Source of the DNA: Bacteroidota bacterium
GTDB taxonomy: Bacteria > Bacteroidota > Ignavibacteria > Ignavibacteriales > Melioribacteraceae
Direction of reading: 5' to 3'
Assembly: GCA_021814855.1 (NCBI GenBank)
Contig: JAKAHQ010000072.1
Location: 1-7,678, forward strand
DNA length: 7,678 nt
The notes beneath the pieces are model-generated. The model searched no databases. It worked only from the letters and a program-made list of their open reading frames with translations, and was not told the origin of the DNA. The position numbers were made by a program, and so were the translations under genes. Positions 1-7,678 of the stretch are shown here, piece after piece (position 1 is the stretch's first letter; the number at the start of each line of letters is the position of its first letter).

Positions 1-177
1 AAATCCTCTAAATACTTTTGTTGTACCGTCGTCCATTCTAACGGGAATGCTGAAATGAAATTCTCTCAATGGATTTCTAAGAATTTCCCGAGTAGCCGTA
101 TCCAGATTTAATATTTCAGCAACTTTGTCAAATTGCGCCTGGGCCATCTCGAATGGATTAAAAGCTTTGTCGCTCAT
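1..177 (-). CDS. gdhA: Glutamate dehydrogenase (Glu/Leu/Phe/Val dehydrogenase family), N-terminal fragment
   Basis: This is the first 59 codons of a gene that continues beyond the left edge. The translation begins MSDKAFNPFEMAQAQFDKVA, continues with NLDTATREILRNPLREFHFS, and then reads IPVRMDDGTTKVFRGF. The block L-x-x-P-x-R-E followed by a beta strand IPVRMDDG and then F-x-GF is the typical opening of the hexameric glutamate dehydrogenase dimerisation domain. Leucine dehydrogenases open differently. The family interconverts glutamate with 2-oxoglutarate and ammonia using NAD(P) in the cytoplasm. The ATG at 175-177 is preceded by GAGG (184-187 on the complementary strand) at a suitable distance. 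The catalytic lysines and the Rossmann domain lie outside the window, so cofactor preference cannot be judged. It is the next gene downstream of the aldehyde dehydrogenase on the same strand, but a 499-bp gap makes a shared transcript unlikely. Confidence 0.85.
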   Translation of the reverse strand, partial: MSDKAFNPFEMAQAQFDKVAEILNLDTATREILRNPLREFHFSIPVRMDDGTTKVFRGF

Positions 178-293
178 GTTTAACCTCAATAGAAATTGTT
201 TTTAAGAATGAAGAGTATGCAACTAGTAAGTCAACTACACCAATAGGAAGAATTTATTTCATTTATTAATTACTGCCTAATTGCAAACTCAAC

Positions 294-676: not shown

Positions 677-2239
677 TTATTTTTTGAAAATTCTAGGCAA
701 AATTTTCAACGCAGCCGTAAGGCCGCTAAATTTGGTGTTCCACCTTTTGCTGTAAAGTAGTTGTAATGTTCCTTTGAGTCCATCGTATAAATTTTTGTTG
801 TAGGGATGCCACCACAAATTCTTTTTTACAAATGGAAGGATATCCGATACAACTACCTGAACTTGTGTCATTTCATTAAACCCGATTTGGCCGTGAGTTC
901 TTCCTATGCCAGATTGTTTAAATCCGCCCCACGGGGTTTCAGCCAACCCGTGGCTCATTAAATGATCGTTTATAGTTACAACACCTGCTTTTATTTGACG
1001 ACCTATACATTCACCGCGGGAATTATTTTTCGTCCAAACCGAGGTTGTAAGCCCAAGGGATGAATCATTTGCCAGTCTTATTGCTTCCTCATAATCTTTA
1101 AACTTCATTACACCAACAACCGGACCAAAAGTCTCCGCCTGCATTAGAATCATATCGTGAGTTACATTTGTCAGCACGGTAGCAGGTAAAAAATTTTTAT
1201 ACTGTGCATCGTTCGGAATTTTAGATTTGGCGTAAATCGTCGCGCCCTTTTTTATTGCATCATCAATGTGAGCATTCACGGTAACACATTGGTTATGAGA
1301 AGTCATGCAGCCCATATCGGCATTAAAATCCTTGTAATAATTAACACGTAATGCTTCAATTTTTTCTTTGAGAATCGGCATGAACGATTCGTAAATATTT
1401 TGATGGACATAAATTCTTTCGATCCCCCCGCAAGATTGCCCGGCGTTTTGAAATCCGGCCCAAAGGGCTCCCGAAGCTGCTCTATAAGGATCGGCATCAT
1501 GGCAGACAATCATTGCATCGTTTCCGCCAAGTTCAAGACAAAGAGGCGTTAAAGATTTTGCGGCCTTTTCCATCAAATATTTTCCAACCGCGACCGAGCC
1601 GGTAAAAAATAATTTATCAATCCTTTCTTCTAAAAAAGCGTCGCCTGCTATTTTACCGGGAAGATTAATCAATTGAAAAACACCCGGCGGAAGTTGAGCT
1701 GCATCAATTGCCTCTTTTAAGATTAATCCCACCAAATTGGATTCGGATGCGGTTTTCAGAATTATAGCATTACCTGCCAGCAAGCCCGATATCGCTTCAC
1801 TGAAAGGTATGGCAAACGGGTAATTGTTCGGAGAGATAATTCCAACAACACCATAAGGCACACGAACAAGTTTACTCCGCTTGTTAATTAAAATAATGTT
1901 TCCGGCTTTTAGCTTTTTGTCGCGCAAAAATTTGTTTACGTTCTTACAGTAATACGAGACTGCCATTGCGGCGGGCATCACCTCGGTTGCTAATGAATCA
2001 ACCAAGGTCTTACCGTTGTTCACAGAAATCGTCTCTGCAATACGGTCGGCATTCTCTACAAGGAAGTGTCGAATTTTAATTACAAGTTTAGCGCGCTCAT
2101 GTATGGAGAATTCTTCCCATAACTGCTGGGCTTCTTTACCTAAACGAATCATCCTTCTCAGATCGTCCACGTTATTTATATCCGATTGCCCTATAGTTTT
2201 TCCAGTGGCCGGATCTAATGCTTTTGTCTGCTCATTCAT
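677..2239 (-). CDS. NAD(P)-dependent aldehyde dehydrogenase with C-terminal extension
   Basis: This 520-residue protein belongs to the aldehyde dehydrogenase superfamily, which oxidises aldehydes to carboxylates in the cytoplasm. The main motifs are present: SPNNYP with oxyanion-hole Asn139, a cofactor-binding Lys162 in LKTAS, FTGS at 212-215, ELGG with general-base Glu236, the nucleophile Cys270 in QSCGGIER, and ETFGP with Glu369. The enzyme should therefore be active. Ser165 sits where NAD-preferring members often have Glu, which leaves NADP use open. About 50 residues follow the normal end of the fold (from roughly 470) and include NLWWHPYNK and a hydrophobic/basic tail ending in RIFKK. 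I recall a similar tail in the subgroup around diapolycopene-dialdehyde dehydrogenase, so a hydrophobic or membrane-associated substrate is possible; this is from memory. The ATG has a modest AGGT upstream (about 2244-2250). It is transcribed divergently from the small gene at 2339. Confidence 0.9.
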   Translation of the reverse strand: MNEQTKALDPATGKTIGQSDINNVDDLRRMIRLGKEAQQLWEEFSIHERAKLVIKIRHFLVENADRIAETISVNNGKTLVDSLATEVMPAAMAVSYYCKNVNKFLRDKKLKAGNIILINKRSKLVRVPYGVVGIISPNNYPFAIPFSEAISGLLAGNAIILKTASESNLVGLILKEAIDAAQLPPGVFQLINLPGKIAGDAFLEERIDKLFFTGSVAVGKYLMEKAAKSLTPLCLELGGNDAMIVCHDADPYRAASGALWAGFQNAGQSCGGIERIYVHQNIYESFMPILKEKIEALRVNYYKDFNADMGCMTSHNQCVTVNAHIDDAIKKGATIYAKSKIPNDAQYKNFLPATVLTNVTHDMILMQAETFGPVVGVMKFKDYEEAIRLANDSSLGLTTSVWTKNNSRGECIGRQIKAGVVTINDHLMSHGLAETPWGGFKQSGIGRTHGQIGFNEMTQVQVVVSDILPFVKKNLWWHPYNKNLYDGLKGTLQLLYSKRWNTKFSGLTAALKILPRIFKK

Positions 2240-2338: not shown

Positions 2339-2758
2339 ATGGAACTAACTATCCTTGATAAGAGCAATTATTTAAAAGCATTGCTAATATTAATCGGGAA
2401 GGATAAAAAAATTTCGGATAGAGAAAGAGAGCTATTTCTAACCTTATCGGTGATTCTCGGGTTTAATCAAGAATTTTGTGAAAATGCGATCAATGAACTC
2501 TTTGAGAACGAATACATAATTGAAGAACCTCCGTTGTTCTCCAATGTGGAAATTGCAAAGGCATTTATTAAAGACGGAATACGAATAGCATTTTCAGATA
2601 AAGCGCTTCACATCTATGAAATGAACTGGTTAAAATCGATAGGTGATAAAAATAATGTTTCTACAGAGTGGAGACTTAAAGAATTTGAACGGATACAAAA
2701 TTTAGGAACACACTCCAACAACGAGTTCGAAATTGCCAAACTATTGAAACCGTTGTAA
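2339..2758 (+). CDS. Small TerB-like hypothetical protein
   Basis: This is a 139-residue protein with no signal peptide or membrane segment, so it is probably cytoplasmic. The start is well supported: a strong AAGGAG lies five bases before the ATG. The pattern LLILIGKDKKISDRERELF (about 15-33) followed by LSVILGF resembles the helical TerB fold (tellurite-resistance TerB and relatives), in which a DG-x-I-x-x-x-E helix start is typical. A second, weaker copy of the pattern appears near AFIKDGIRIAFSD (75-87), matching the internal symmetry of that fold. The TerB metal-binding acidic residues are not clearly all present. No other ter genes are nearby, so a role in tellurite resistance should not be assumed. 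The assignment is by pattern only. The gene is alone on the plus strand and converges on the next gene, with stops three bases apart. Confidence 0.75.
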   Translation: MELTILDKSNYLKALLILIGKDKKISDRERELFLTLSVILGFNQEFCENAINELFENEYIIEEPPLFSNVEIAKAFIKDGIRIAFSDKALHIYEMNWLKSIGDKNNVSTEWRLKEFERIQNLGTHSNNEFEIAKLLKPL

Positions 2759-2761
2759 ATT

Positions 2762-3997
2762 TTAATTTTTTATGCCTGTTACTTTTGTATCTACAAGCAA
2801 AAATTTATTCCCGTTGTACCGCCATGTTGAATATGCAAATCCAATCGTCATATAATTTGCAACACCCTTAATCGCTTGAGTGCCATATAATTCATAGAGC
2901 CCATCTTTATTTGAATTTCTCACTTCCATCATTCCGTATGAGTTAATCCAGACGTCTCCGTTTTTTATAAGCTTTCCGGATTTGTAGTAATTCAATTCGT
3001 CTAAATTATTTTTCACATGCAAAAGACTTAGGTCAAATGATTTGCCGGATTCTTTCAAATATACTTTAGCTAAATAATTATTTTCAAAACGACCTGTTAT
3101 GTGAAGTAAATGTGAGCTATCCGGACTAAAAAGCAATACAGGTTCACTATTTTTAAATGAATAAATAAGATAATTAATGATTCCCCCGCTTCCGCCTGTT
3201 GCGCCGCAGTAAAATATTTCCGAGAATTTTTTATTTGTAAAATTTGCTGGTTGAATAACCGGATCATAACTGCCCGCGTATTCCTTTGGCAAGCCGGTTA
3301 CTTTTTCTTCTTTTGTTTTACCGTCATACAGGATGAGATAAAGTTTGTCATAAAAAAATGTTTTCAAATCGTACCTGTGTCCGACAAGAGAAATTTCATC
3401 TGCAACGCCGTCACCTGTAACATCTAAGTATAATCTTTGAATTACATAAGTACCCACGGGTAATTTATACTTATCATAGTTGTTCAGCATTAGCGGCTTG
3501 ACATTCATTGTTAAGCTGTCTGTACAATCATTCAAAGTGTACGATACGCTTCCTGTGACCCAATGAGCCGAGAATTTTGGTTTGGCATCTTTTAGAAAAG
3601 TATTTTTAGAGTAGGGATCGCCGCCGAGGAAATTAGAAATAATTTTAACTGCACTGTCTCTTTGCAGCGTTGTAGGAAATGTTAAATTAATTTGTGTTAC
3701 CTTGTTATGAATGAACAGGTATTTTGCATTTACCTTTCCAAGATCAAACCAATTCTCCTGGTATTGAATCGCATTGGACTTATGACCGGATTGAATATTC
3801 AAAACAATTTTTTTACCGCCGGGTTTTAACGAAAGCAAGCTATCGCTGCTGATTCCAAAAATTTGAAAAGGCGATTTATAATTTTTTCCCGGCGGATTCG
3901 CCTGCGCGGCAGTGTAACACGCGAGTAACATAATAGCGGCAGACAAGAAAAAATAAAATCCATGTTTCGAAGTACATGCAAATAATTTTATTTTCAT
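2762..3997 (-). CDS. Exported protein, possible lipoprotein, with VCBS-like DVTGDG and TGGSGG motifs
   Basis: This 411-residue protein opens with a Sec-type signal, a hydrophobic stretch FYFFLSAAIMLLAC at 14-27. LLAC is a fair lipobox (Cys27), but AQA at 31-33 is also a good signal peptidase I site, so lipoprotein or periplasmic fates are both possible. An in-frame TAA lies just upstream, so the ATG at 3995-3997 is the only reasonable start. AAAGG precedes it by about nine bases. LDVTGDGVADEISLVG (191-206) looks like a Ca-binding loop of the VCBS/FG-GAP type. ATGGSGGIINYLIYSFKN (266-283) matches a pattern I recall from exported Firmicutes proteins with DVTGDG motifs. NKDGLYELYG (363-372) is a second, weaker acidic loop. 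The structure is probably rich in beta strands. No enzyme motif was found and the function is unknown. It is downstream of the large surface-protein gene on the same strand, but a terminator separates them. Confidence 0.8.
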   Translation of the reverse strand: MKIKLFACTSKHGFYFFLSAAIMLLACYTAAQANPPGKNYKSPFQIFGISSDSLLSLKPGGKKIVLNIQSGHKSNAIQYQENWFDLGKVNAKYLFIHNKVTQINLTFPTTLQRDSAVKIISNFLGGDPYSKNTFLKDAKPKFSAHWVTGSVSYTLNDCTDSLTMNVKPLMLNNYDKYKLPVGTYVIQRLYLDVTGDGVADEISLVGHRYDLKTFFYDKLYLILYDGKTKEEKVTGLPKEYAGSYDPVIQPANFTNKKFSEIFYCGATGGSGGIINYLIYSFKNSEPVLLFSPDSSHLLHITGRFENNYLAKVYLKESGKSFDLSLLHVKNNLDELNYYKSGKLIKNGDVWINSYGMMEVRNSNKDGLYELYGTQAIKGVANYMTIGFAYSTWRYNGNKFLLVDTKVTGIKN

Positions 3998-4215: not shown

Positions 4216-4470
4216 TTACTTCATCAGAATCATTTTCTTGCTCATATTAACATTGTTTCCGCTCAATCTGTAGATGTACATACCGGAAGCTAATCTGCTG
4301 GCATCAAAAGTTACCTTGTGAACGCCGATTGATAATTCATTGTCAACCAGGTTGGCAATTTCCTGTCCCAGTACGTTGTATATCTTCAGAGAGTATTTAC
4401 CAGCAGCCGGAATCGAGAACTCGATTGTAGTTGTCGGATTAAAAGGATTAGGATAGTTCTGCGATAAATT
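4216..4470 (-). other. T9SS type A C-terminal sorting domain
   Basis: This stretch encodes the last 85 residues of the surface protein, roughly residues 551-635 of the fragment. The box NYPNPFNPTTTIEFSIP, the central VYNVLGQEV-type strand (here IYNVLGQEIANLV) and the terminal LASGMYIYRL...KKMILMK block are the three conserved parts of the TIGR04183-type domain. In known systems the domain is recognised by the type IX translocon and removed on attachment to the surface. It is complete here. Confidence 0.9.
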
Positions 4471-6123
4471 GAATTCCTTCGGCATCGAGTTGTTATCTTC
4501 AACAGCTGTGGTTCCGCTTATTTCGGAAACTGCATACAGAGTTCCGGATTTGGTTCCGGCAAATACAGTGTTAGTAGACGGAAGAACCATTAGCGAACTT
4601 ACACCAGAGCCGCCTAAACCAAAGCTTGTCCAGGTATTTCCGTTATCCGACGATACTTCAACGCCATTCGTGAGAGAGCTTGCATATATTTTTCCGCTCG
4701 CATCTACAGAGATTGAATAAACGAACTGGATATTCAGCGAGGTTAATTTTGTCCAGCTTCCGCCGTTATTGGTAGATCTGTAAAGACCATCGCCGTATGT
4801 GCCGGCAAAGATTGCAGTTGAAGTAGCGCCAAGCGACCATACATTACCGCATGTTAACTTTGCCCATGTTGTTGTACCGTATGCAAGTTTGAAAATGCCG
4901 CCGCCGACTGTTCCGGCAAATACATCCCCATTATTGTTGACTGTAAGAGCCTGTATTGTTAAGAATGCGCAGAAGCCGTTATTCATTTCTGTCCATGTAG
5001 CTCCAAAGTCGTTGGATACGTAAACTCCGAATCCCCATGTGCCTGCGTAAAGCACTCCGTTGTAGGAAGTGATTGAGTGACAATCTTTACCTGCAAGACT
5101 TGTAAGCGACCATGCCGAGCCATTGTATTTGTAGATACCTTTTTCTGTAGCTGCAAACATAAATCCGCCGCTTATATTGAGCGACCATATGAATGACGCA
5201 TCCATACCTGAATTGAAGAGAACCCAGGTTTTACCGTTATCGGATGATTTATAAATCTTACCGCCCCATGTTCCTGCGTAGATATTTGTTCCATCGGAGA
5301 TGAGCGAGTAAACTATAGCACCGTTACCAAACGAACATACTGACTGCCAGTTTCCGCCGCCAGAGTTTCCACCGGTATTTCCGCCGTTGTTACCACCGTT
5401 ATTGCCGCCGTTATTTCCGCCATTGGAAGAACCGCCAATTGTAATTGTAGCGCTGCCGGAATTGTTGCTTGAATTATCATCAAGCGGAGATGAGCTAATA
5501 ACACTGGCAATGTTTGTAATTTTATTATCGTATGGAATGTGCCCGTCGAATGTTACATAATTGAACTGACCCATACCGGTAAGCGAGTAACAAATCATTT
5601 GGCCGTTCTGTACGCCGCTTACAAAGTTAACTGCAGCAAACGGTGCCAGTATAGATCCTCTAATATCAATTCCCTGAATTTTCAAAGTAGTTGCTTCATA
5701 GAAATTATAGAGGACATTATTAATTGCCGTACCGTTTACAGCCAAACCTCCTGTCCAACTAATATTTGTACCGCCGATGTTTACAAGTACTCCGGCTCCA
5801 TTAGGAACGTTAATTGTGAAACTATTTGCAGCCGAAAGATCGGAACCGTTAACATCGAATACGTTTAAGTAAGGATCAGTACCGGTCAACGTTAATCCTC
5901 CCCACTGTGAAGTAGTTGTACCGTTAACCGAATAAGTTGACAGCGATACAGACATAGTCTCTAATGAATTCTTTGCTGCAGCAAAGTCGATTACATTATC
6001 CTTGCGAAGTGTTCCGCCTGTTATGCTTACGGAGGATTGCGGCAAATTGGTTGCATGACCATATACAACGTTTCCGTTATATACTGCGCCGCTTGTGAAA
6101 TTCAAATCGTTGCCTACAACCAA
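4216..6123 (-). CDS. C-terminal part of an interrupted surface protein: choice-of-anchor A domain, beta-propeller, T9SS sorting domain
   Basis: The frame is 635 residues from a TTG at 6123, but coding similarity continues upstream to 6246, directly behind a TAA. Residues 1-200, plus the 41 codons before them (GDLTQPSSDTQGKVAVG), form a choice-of-anchor A domain ending GSILAPFAAVNFVSG and FDGHIP. A Gly/Asn linker spans 229-259. Residues 260-540 hold seven similar units of the type FAGT-x-GGGIYKSSDNGKTW, with Asp-box-like S-x-D-x-G-x-TW in several, which suggests a seven-bladed propeller of the BNR/sialidase-like class. No sialidase catalytic set was recognised. Residues 550-635 are a T9SS type A sorting domain (NYPNPFNP, IYNVLGQEI, LASGMYIYRL, KKMILMK), which directs export through the outer membrane and attachment. 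There is no signal peptide, and the first ATG falls at residue 57, inside the fold. It is therefore almost certainly the rear of the gene that begins beyond 7678. Confidence 0.85.
   Translation of the reverse strand: MVVGNDLNFTSGAVYNGNVVYGHATNLPQSSVSITGGTLRKDNVIDFAAAKNSLETMSVSLSTYSVNGTTTSQWGGLTLTGTDPYLNVFDVNGSDLSAANSFTINVPNGAGVLVNIGGTNISWTGGLAVNGTAINNVLYNFYEATTLKIQGIDIRGSILAPFAAVNFVSGVQNGQMICYSLTGMGQFNYVTFDGHIPYDNKITNIASVISSSPLDDNSSNNSGSATITIGGSSNGGNNGGNNGGNNGGNTGGNSGGGNWQSVCSFGNGAIVYSLISDGTNIYAGTWGGKIYKSSDNGKTWVLFNSGMDASFIWSLNISGGFMFAATEKGIYKYNGSAWSLTSLAGKDCHSITSYNGVLYAGTWGFGVYVSNDFGATWTEMNNGFCAFLTIQALTVNNNGDVFAGTVGGGIFKLAYGTTTWAKLTCGNVWSLGATSTAIFAGTYGDGLYRSTNNGGSWTKLTSLNIQFVYSISVDASGKIYASSLTNGVEVSSDNGNTWTSFGLGGSGVSSLMVLPSTNTVFAGTKSGTLYAVSEISGTTAVEDNNSMPKEFNLSQNYPNPFNPTTTIEFSIPAAGKYSLKIYNVLGQEIANLVDNELSIGVHKVTFDASRLASGMYIYRLSGNNVNMSKKMILMK
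5350..5436 (-). repeat. 12-bp tandem repeat encoding a Gly/Asn linker
   Basis: Imperfect 12-base units, of the kind GGCGGNAAYAAY on the coding strand, encode the run GGNNGGNNGGNNGGNTGGNSGG between the choice-of-anchor A domain and the propeller. The codons vary at third positions, so the array is not freshly expanded. In the protein it is a flexible, low-complexity spacer. Tandem units of this kind can change number by slippage in whole codons, which would alter linker length without breaking the frame. Confidence 0.75.
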
Positions 6124-6246
6124 TACATCGCCGCTGTTTACCGGCAGTTGGTCGCCAACACTATAAGTAGAAAGCGATGCATTGTGACCAACGGCAACCT
6201 TGCCTTGTGTATCGGAAGATGGCTGTGTTAGATCACCTATAGCAAA

Positions 6247-6249
6247 TTA
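6247..6249 (-). other. In-frame TAA stop that interrupts the surface-protein gene
   Basis: The frame ending here (4216-6246 side) and the frame arriving here (7677-6250 side) are identical, and this TAA is the only stop in 3462 bp. The reading across it is STFDFGVAKGFN-stop-FAIGDLTQPSSDTQG. This joins into a normal opening of a choice-of-anchor A domain, where an F-N-x-F-x-x-GDLT pattern is usual. One base change would restore a sense codon, for example TTA (Leu) or TAT/TAC (Tyr). TAA is not used for selenocysteine (TGA) or pyrrolysine (TAG). The whole stretch 4216-7678 is best read as one gene, either a pseudogene or one with a sequence error here. Confidence 0.8.
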
Positions 6250-7678
6250 GTTAAATCCTTTAGCTACACCAAAATCAAATGTAGAACTGTTTGCCGAACC
6301 GCAATCCACTTTAACTGTAATTGTTAATGTTGCAAATGCTCCGTTAGCAAGGTTTCCTACAGTCCACAATCCGGTTGTGTTATCGTAAGTTCCTTGAGAT
6401 GGCGTACTGCTTACATAAACCAATCCAGCCGGCAATTGATCCATAACTTGAACATTCGAAGCGTCGTTAGGACCAAGGTTAGTTGCCTTAACTGTGAAAG
6501 TAACATTTTGATCGCACTGCGGATTCGGATTGTCGACAATTTTTTCAATTTTAATATCAGCTTTACTTTGCTGGCATACTACGTTTACAGTTACGCTGCT
6601 TTCATCAATTACCGTCGCGGATCCGTCAATCGGGTGTCCTTCGGCTCTGGCAGTATTCGTAATTTGACCACAATCTTTATCGCTTGTAACGTATGTTTCC
6701 GTGAATGAAGTAGAAGCTCCTGCGTCGAGCACATCAATGTGTTTAAGTATATTGTTTCCGGCTAACATTTGATCATAAATGTCTATTCCGCCATGCAACT
6801 GAATATCGCCGCAGTTTTCTACTGCAAACGTATATGTTATTGTTTCACCTTTATTGTATGAATCTTTATCTGCTGTTTTTGTAATGCTTACACAAGTTTT
6901 ATAGAAACCAAAATCAAGACTTAAATCGTCGCCGCAATTAACAGTTGTATTTAACGAATCGCTGTTATTTTGAGAAGCGTACCATTTTGTCTGCGAGTTG
7001 CTGTATAAAGCGCCGCCTAACTGGAAGTTAGAAGCAGCAACTCTAACTTTGTAAGAACCGTTCGGAAGATTCGGGAATGAATAATGACCAGTTTGATCTG
7101 TAATTGCACTTGCAAGTACGGTATTATTTTGTACTAATTCTACCTTAACGCCTGGTATTCCGAGTTCGCCGCTGTCTTGAATACCGTTATGGTTTTTATC
7201 ATGCCATACAAAATCGCCGATTGTATTTTGGCAAGCGCTTGAACAATCGACATTAACCGTAACGCTCGATATACTTGTTACAGTGGCCGAGCCGTCTACA
7301 GGATGACCATCGGCTTGAACTGTATTTACCAAATCTCCGCAGTCTTTATCGCTTGTGGTGTAAGTTCTTGTAAAGGTTGTATCACCACCAGGATTGAGTA
7401 AATTAATATGCAGCAATTTATGATCGCCGGAAGAAACCAATAGTTGATCATAAATATCTATTCCGCCGTGCAGCTGAATGTCGCCGCAGTTTTCAACTTT
7501 AAATGTATAAGTAACAATATCGCCTTTTTTGTAAGAAGCTTTATCAGCGGTTTTTGTAATTCCTATGCATGTTTTATAATAACCGAAATTGATTGACAGA
7601 TTATCGTTGCAGCTTAAAGTAGTATTTACTGAACCGCTGTTTTTAGTGTACCATTTAATTTGCGCTGTGTTATAGAAT
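6247..7678 (-). CDS. Surface adhesin-like repeat protein (SdrD_B and DUF11 domains), start beyond the right edge
   Basis: The frame is open to the right edge (first full codon at 7677), giving 476 visible residues with no start. In order: the end of an SdrD_B-like domain (1-37), a DUF11-like repeat (about 35-145), a complete SdrD_B-like domain (149-262) with the Ca-loop-like DKNHNGIQDSGE at 160-171, a second DUF11-like repeat (260-368), and a canonical DUF11 domain (373-459, with NPNPQCDQNVTFTVKATNLG and LPAGLVYVSSTPSQG). These are immunoglobulin-like beta-sandwich modules that build stalks of secreted adhesins. Cys residues sit at matching places in the two repeats (YKTC, ENCGD, DKDCG, VNV-x-C), which suggests disulfides outside the cytoplasm. 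A TTG at 7438-7440 is only an internal Leu codon, since the homology continues upstream. The frame ends at the TAA at 6247 in the opening of the next domain, so the encoded product would lack the T9SS sorting domain and could not be anchored normally. Confidence 0.85.
   Translation of the reverse strand, partial: FYNTAQIKWYTKNSGSVNTTLSCNDNLSINFGYYKTCIGITKTADKASYKKGDIVTYTFKVENCGDIQLHGGIDIYDQLLVSSGDHKLLHINLLNPGGDTTFTRTYTTSDKDCGDLVNTVQADGHPVDGSATVTSISSVTVNVDCSSACQNTIGDFVWHDKNHNGIQDSGELGIPGVKVELVQNNTVLASAITDQTGHYSFPNLPNGSYKVRVAASNFQLGGALYSNSQTKWYASQNNSDSLNTTVNCGDDLSLDFGFYKTCVSITKTADKDSYNKGETITYTFAVENCGDIQLHGGIDIYDQMLAGNNILKHIDVLDAGASTSFTETYVTSDKDCGQITNTARAEGHPIDGSATVIDESSVTVNVVCQQSKADIKIEKIVDNPNPQCDQNVTFTVKATNLGPNDASNVQVMDQLPAGLVYVSSTPSQGTYDNTTGLWTVGNLANGAFATLTITVKVDCGSANSSTFDFGVAKGFN
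6574..6900 (-). repeat. DUF11-like repeat, copy 2
   Basis: This encodes KTCVSITKTADK, VENCGDIQLHGGIDIYDQ, TSDKDCGQ and GHPIDGSATV to VTVNVVC. It is two codons shorter than copy 1 in the loop after IYDQ. Each repeat is preceded by an SdrD_B-like domain, so the true repeat unit is the pair, about 225 residues. More copies probably lie beyond the right edge. Confidence 0.75.
6892..7233 (-). other. SdrD_B-like domain with Ca-binding-like loop
   Basis: The encoded domain begins NTIGDFVWHDKNHNGIQDSG and continues with ELGIPGVKVELV, TDQTGHYSFPNLPNGSYKVRV and a final strand DDLSLDFGFYK. The loop D-x-N-x-N-G-x-x-D and the transthyretin-like strand pattern T-D-x-x-G-x-Y-x-F-x-x-L match the B-repeat family of Sdr-type surface proteins. 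In that family the loop binds calcium and stiffens the stalk. Confidence 0.8.
7243..7575 (-). repeat. DUF11-like repeat, copy 1
   Basis: This encodes the unit from KTCIGITKTADK through VENCGDIQLHGGIDIYDQ, TSDKDCGD and GHPVDGSATV to VTVNVDC. Copy 2 lies 675 bp further along the gene, separated by one SdrD_B-like domain. About two thirds of the residues match by eye, with many synonymous base differences, so the duplication is not recent. Confidence 0.75.

Follow-up and report, generated by a model that had tools for sequence, protein, structure and literature searches.

We found that the window, the whole stretch of 7,678 nucleotides that was analysed, carries on its minus strand a long adhesin gene whose reading frame is interrupted by one in-frame TAA at 6247-6249, inside a choice-of-anchor A domain. 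The organism is Melioribacteraceae-like (Ignavibacteria), as judged from its sequence. Comparison with related genes indicates that the lesion is most likely a singleton and young, being either a nonsense allele or a consensus error. By judgement, we lean slightly towards a real, recent single-base nonsense allele in the sampled strain. The features of the window are as follows.

1-201, minus strand: N-terminal piece matching glutamate dehydrogenase models, running off the window (NF040817, E 8.2e-11, under the cut-off for the whole protein)
677-2239, minus strand: intact aldehyde dehydrogenase (PF00171), 520 residues, aligning end to end with relatives
2339-2758, plus strand: 139-residue frame with, by inspection, a ribosome-binding-like stretch ahead of it
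2762-3997, minus strand: 411-residue frame, ATG at 3995-3997, hydrophobic leader by inspection
4216-4218, minus strand: the adhesin gene's own TAA stop, at the same end place as in relatives
4219-6246, minus strand: downstream half of the adhesin gene, 676 codons to the gene's own stop (Pfam and NCBIfam)
4228-4455, minus strand: type IX secretion C-terminal sorting domain (PF18962, E 1.2e-11; TIGR04183, E 1.3e-11)
4501-5361, minus strand: BNR/sortilin-like repeats, several weak-to-moderate matches (downstream residues 296-582)
5557-6246, minus strand: choice-of-anchor A / pAdhesive_15 ice-binding-like adhesive domain, minus its first positions (E 1.2e-52 in Pfam, 1.1e-56 in NCBIfam)
6124-6246, minus strand: 41 sense codons from the TAA to the first possible start, front of the choice-of-anchor A domain
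6247-6249, minus strand: in-frame TAA interrupting the adhesin frame (frame count; sense codon at 67 of 67 domain-bearing relative loci)
6250-7677, minus strand: upstream half of the adhesin gene, 476 codons, stalk-type domains, running off the window (Pfam matches)
6298-6558, minus strand: DUF11 repeat (PF01345), best among three stretches (upstream residues 374-460)
6616-6891, minus strand: DUF7507 (PF24346), better of two stretches (upstream residues 263-354)
7000-7224, minus strand: SdrD_B-like domain (PF17210; upstream residues 152-226, E 5.4e-23)

Read from 7677 to 4216, the minus strand gives a single 1154-codon frame in which only the TAAs at 6247-6249 and 4216-4218 are stops; the frame runs off the window, and the start of the adhesin gene lies beyond its edge. 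The remaining two minus-strand frames over 7677-4216 contain 63 and 98 stops, indicating that the openness of the adhesin frame is not due to chance. A preliminary description had placed both halves in one phase with the TAA at 6247-6249 as the sole stop between them, and the stop count agreed; on recount, neither a frameshift nor a third stop was found in the adhesin frame over 4216-7677. The earliest ATG, GTG or TTG past the inner TAA is the TTG at 6121-6123, again as described, and 41 sense codons (6124-6246) precede it. That these codons encode the leading part of a choice-of-anchor A domain was confirmed by searches with the downstream half alone. Its residues 1-230 corresponded to positions 11-254 of the PF20597 model (179.8 bits, against a cut-off of 23.8), and its residues 1-235 to positions 6-255 of TIGR04215 (192.4 bits, against a cut-off of 29). 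Since PF20597 is matched from position 11 here and from position 2 at residue 811 of the nearest named locus, L001, the TAA falls at about position 10 of 254 and breaks the continuous frame through the domain.

The two halves carry different parts of what appears, from the domain matches, to be one known architecture: an SdrD_B/DUF7507/DUF11 stalk, a choice-of-anchor A domain, BNR-like repeats and a type IX tail. PF18962 and TIGR04183 both matched above cut-off at downstream residues 598-673 of 676, so that the sorting domain ends the frame, and PF15902 alone among the BNR/sortilin-like Pfam matches exceeded its cut-off. The stalk domains and the adhesive, presumably binding, domain lie on opposite sides of the TAA and not in one frame. 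As the preliminary description had it, no sorting domain was detected by Pfam and NCBIfam in the 476 upstream residues, and the downstream part has no signal peptide by inspection. The upstream part probably has one beyond the window edge, because the intact L001 protein starts with a hydrophobic leader, as judged by eye.

We then compared the gene with its relatives, which are for the most part uncultured environmental bacteria, labelled mostly Melioribacter, Melioribacteraceae, Stygiobacter or Ignavibacteria, with some Bacteroidetes/Chlorobiota and one locus (L007) labelled Thermotogales. Among the best 80 of 205 relatives, which gave 79 loci, the nearest named locus was L001, from an uncultured Bacteroidetes MAG, with a best segment of 71% identity. 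The L001 protein, 1489 residues long, unites TED, Big_1, SdrD_B, DUF7507, DUF11, pAdhesive_15 and a sorting tail in a single chain. The thioester domain TED (PF08341) lies near the N-terminus of L001 (1635-6104); in the passages considered from the study of fibrillar-adhesin-like proteins (PMC8286594), TED is named as an adhesive domain for Firmicutes and Actinobacteria. The closest proteins among those listed were P0122-P0126 and P0153, 72-75% identical over the compared region. The first of two adhesin searches gave 448 proteins with an E-value of 1e-10 or lower. In the best 120 of these, which were compared, the column of the stop held L, V, I or A in 111 of 120, the other nine not reaching the column. 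The 231 proteins listed by both adhesin searches held L (165), V (48), I (3), A (2), P (1) or T (1), with 11 leaving the column uncovered. The rows with P (P0182) and T (P0223) are poorly aligned and without the adhesive domain; in the remaining 218 the residue is always L, V, I or A.

The same was seen at the level of DNA. Of the 79 loci, 12 (L060 and L069-L079) are without the domain in their matched part; the 67 that show it all have a sense codon at the place of the stop (L 43, V 17, I 4, M 2, F 1). Across 79 family genomes, with 13 candidates scored per genome as a rule, none of the 77 near-full-length matches listed (from 55 genomes) had an internal stop. Near-full-length here means that 713 or more of the query's 767 residues are covered, the query spanning the place of the stop; the 77 were counted by hand from the first rows of the table and include the query's own gene, and they overlap with the 67 loci, as the same genes occur under different ids. 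At least two near-full-length copies were present in at least 14 of the 79 family genomes (hand count among the matches listed), with five in one genome, G046. Nine near relatives terminate where the adhesin's final TAA stands. The exact 36-base pattern adjoining the stop was found in 0 viral contigs. The alignment to homologous choice-of-anchor A proteins that had been proposed earlier gave a sense residue, mostly L or V, where the TAA stands. The companion question, whether close relatives all encode two proteins, was answered on other species, which encode one protein instead. Among the 120 proteins listed in each of the two adhesin searches, the second of which was limited to proteins of at most 2018 residues, none was more than 75% identical, and the absence of the stop is therefore demonstrated in other species only. 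Within the sequences compared, intact copies are the rule among relatives, and a stop at this place was seen nowhere else.

These comparisons bear on whether the TAA could be a functional element of the gene. Programmed readthrough of the TAA, or its decoding as an amino acid, would explain why the halves share a frame and are both conserved. However, none of the relatives examined carries a stop there (0 of 67 loci and 0 of 77 matches listed), and nothing indicates that a regulated stop is under selection. TAA also terminates the adhesin and the aldehyde dehydrogenase, both where their relatives end, as well as the 411- and 139-residue frames, neither of which has a known family, indicating that TAA functions as a stop in the window. 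We consider readthrough or recoding very improbable, and an alternative genetic code was rejected because TAA terminates other genes of the window. Even less credible is a design of two separate genes in which the second has a start of its own; nothing but the stop itself speaks for it. The first possible start lies 41 codons into the domain and would cost about six predicted strands, no signal peptide is seen by inspection ahead of the type IX sorting tail, and the relatives examined, all of other species, encode one protein. Re-initiation at this first start, 41 codons inside the domain and with a loss of about six predicted strands, likewise found no support.

The extent of that loss was estimated on a predicted structure of the intact domain of L001, which was modelled with a mean pLDDT of 95.1 from an alignment of 41 sequences chosen by the author from the 67 domain-bearing loci. 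The column of the stop corresponds to model residue 15, where the first strand (15-17) begins. If translation restarted at the TTG, residues 16-56 of the model would be lost, and with them six predicted strands and the start of the seventh. The best fold matches of the predicted domain were DUF3494-type ice-binding proteins (PDB 7bwx, 3uyu, 6eio and others), the best being 7bwx with E 2.0e-06. The first five matches showed 12-14% identity, TM-scores of 0.40-0.53 and an rmsd of 8-11.4, and the domain profile had 0 sequence matches in the PDB at E 0.01; with such low identity and no PDB sequence match, ice binding is not implied.

To date the lesion, we examined whether the gene shows further damage. 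The reference set comprised 103 relatives, the ones at least 55% identical out of 218 covering more than 90% of the stretch; a column counted as highly conserved if it was conserved at 95% or more in the other members of this set. The downstream half violated 2 of 169 such columns, against a median of 1.2% in the 103 relatives, of which 69 had a downstream violation share equal to or below that of the window; the upstream half violated 0 of 21. These counts uphold the earlier claim that neither half is otherwise damaged and that any lesion is young, and, with no clear decay at conserved columns, the adhesin sequence has probably not been long free of selection. About 4% of the possible single substitutions in the adhesin frame (417 of 10,386) create a stop, so a lone stop without further damage fits few unselected changes. 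Lineage-specific residues, counted against five near relatives with three outgroups, were not consistently more numerous in the window. For the choice-of-anchor A domain the window was higher with several outgroups (e.g. 20 vs 10 for L001 with P0132), while in the rest of the downstream half it was equal or lower (e.g. 32 vs 58 for L001 with P0127), and the excess in the domain was absent in some comparisons (e.g. 14 vs 19 for P0124 with P0127). The mild excess in the domain counts against a young lesion, or at least not for it. Taken together, the one-protein relatives and the lack of clear decay support the ranking first given, namely a recent nonsense mutation or a sequence error, both far ahead of readthrough.

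A consensus error in sequencing or assembly, by which the organism's gene would be intact and the TAA present in the contig alone, fits the same facts, and from sequence alone it cannot be separated from a nonsense allele. We regard such an error as quite possible, though not as the favoured reading. It agrees with a lone substitution-type lesion between two otherwise undamaged halves, with the lack of the stop in all relatives inspected and with the possibility that the window is a metagenome contig. It is also consistent with the record of the species: a protein equal to the downstream fragment was not found among the best 120 of 448 proteins listed, though its length would fit, while the dehydrogenase next to it is recorded on three contigs. 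One explanation is that the species' adhesin might be known only as a longer protein (more than 2018 residues), with the fragment clustered under an intact representative; another is that the contigs with the dehydrogenase might end before the adhesin gene. Against an error, no other stray stop stands in the window's recognisable genes, and the dehydrogenase occurs on three contigs, although these are possibly re-assemblies of the same reads and one is possibly the window's own.

As for the neighbouring genes, a protein identical to the dehydrogenase is recorded on three contigs, the longest of 27,059 bases, and as the gene is also intact, the surrounding sequence is not error-ridden. The species' adhesin, by comparison, was not among the proteins listed in either adhesin search. 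Beyond the identical records, the dehydrogenase was 66-70% identical in the genomes of six named relatives and at most 72% identical among the other proteins listed. It was at most 70% identical across the 79 family genomes (29 with a match at E 1e-150), and its DNA was at most 72% identical across 391 genomes of the class drawn evenly from a larger group (13 with a match at E 1e-100). No plasmid record matched it. Of 120 neighbourhood loci, 16 contained the dehydrogenase, and the 14 listed are the loci retrieved for the dehydrogenase itself. The glutamate dehydrogenase piece occurred in 0 of the 120 loci, as did the 411-residue frame at E 1e-10. Neither that frame (residues 2-411, at E 0.01) nor the 139-residue plus-strand frame had a Pfam or NCBIfam match.

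We also scanned 6100-6400 for repeats. An imperfect 11-base inverted repeat (6193-6203 / 6347-6357) flanks the inner stop and is probably due to chance; no direct repeat was found within this interval, and the sequence has no slip-prone run at the stop. Surface proteins are often variable within species, and intact and stopped alleles might coexist in a strain mixture or through a switch, adhesin display then varying between cells. The youth of the lesion would suit such coexistence, as would, weakly, the flanking repeat if it is not a chance one. On the other hand, direct repeats and a slip-prone run are missing, and inversion of the stretch between the weak repeats would flip coding sequence and not change one codon. 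We therefore hold coexisting alleles to be improbable. The same low probability is given to the wider proposal that the species keeps stopped and intact alleles, or reads the TAA through at a low rate, and has the full adhesin on some cells or molecules only.

Returning to the slightly favoured reading of a recent nonsense allele, we propose the following course of events. One recent base change would have created the TAA where the choice-of-anchor A domain starts, and translation would stop at 6247-6249. Cargo of type IX secretion needs a signal peptide to cross the inner membrane and a C-terminal tail for the type IX machine. The upstream product would reach the periplasm by its putative signal peptide and, without a sorting tail, would not be displayed by the type IX machine. 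Any product restarted downstream, without a signal peptide and minus the first strands of the domain, would remain in the cell. The outcome would be that the adhesin is missing from the cell surface. Since several relatives have two or more copies of the family, the loss of one adhesin is probably tolerated. If real, the allele would be a further case of a surface adhesin lost by one nonsense change, in a lineage often with more than one copy. The finding is confirmed yet ordinary, and it carries a caution for annotation: a gene caller would give two unrelated-looking fragments, the first lacking the sorting tail and the second the export signal.

A literature search found no work joining choice-of-anchor A with type IX secretion, none joining premature stops, pseudogenes, metagenome assembly and sequencing error, and none joining premature stops, adhesins, surface proteins, nonsense mutation and readthrough. 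Among the matches listed for Ignavibacteria-related literature, the term choice-of-anchor A was absent. The nearest described group is that of the fibrillar-adhesin-like proteins, which, in the passages considered from PMC8286594, combine stalk repeats, an adhesive domain and a type IX tail, all of which the window encodes as well, on either side of its TAA; the Por_Secre_tail is reported there in 124 such proteins, mostly from Bacteroidetes. The same passages do not mention broken members and do not name an ice-binding-like domain among the adhesive domains. By its sequence, the adhesin appears to belong to a family, common in Ignavibacteria, of long fibrillar-adhesin-like proteins secreted by the type IX route. 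The choice-of-anchor A proteins of Melioribacteraceae and other Ignavibacteria have the same kinds of domain as the window's gene, and L001 has them also in the same order. At the place where the window's gene carries its TAA within the domain, L001 and P0122-P0126 are uninterrupted.
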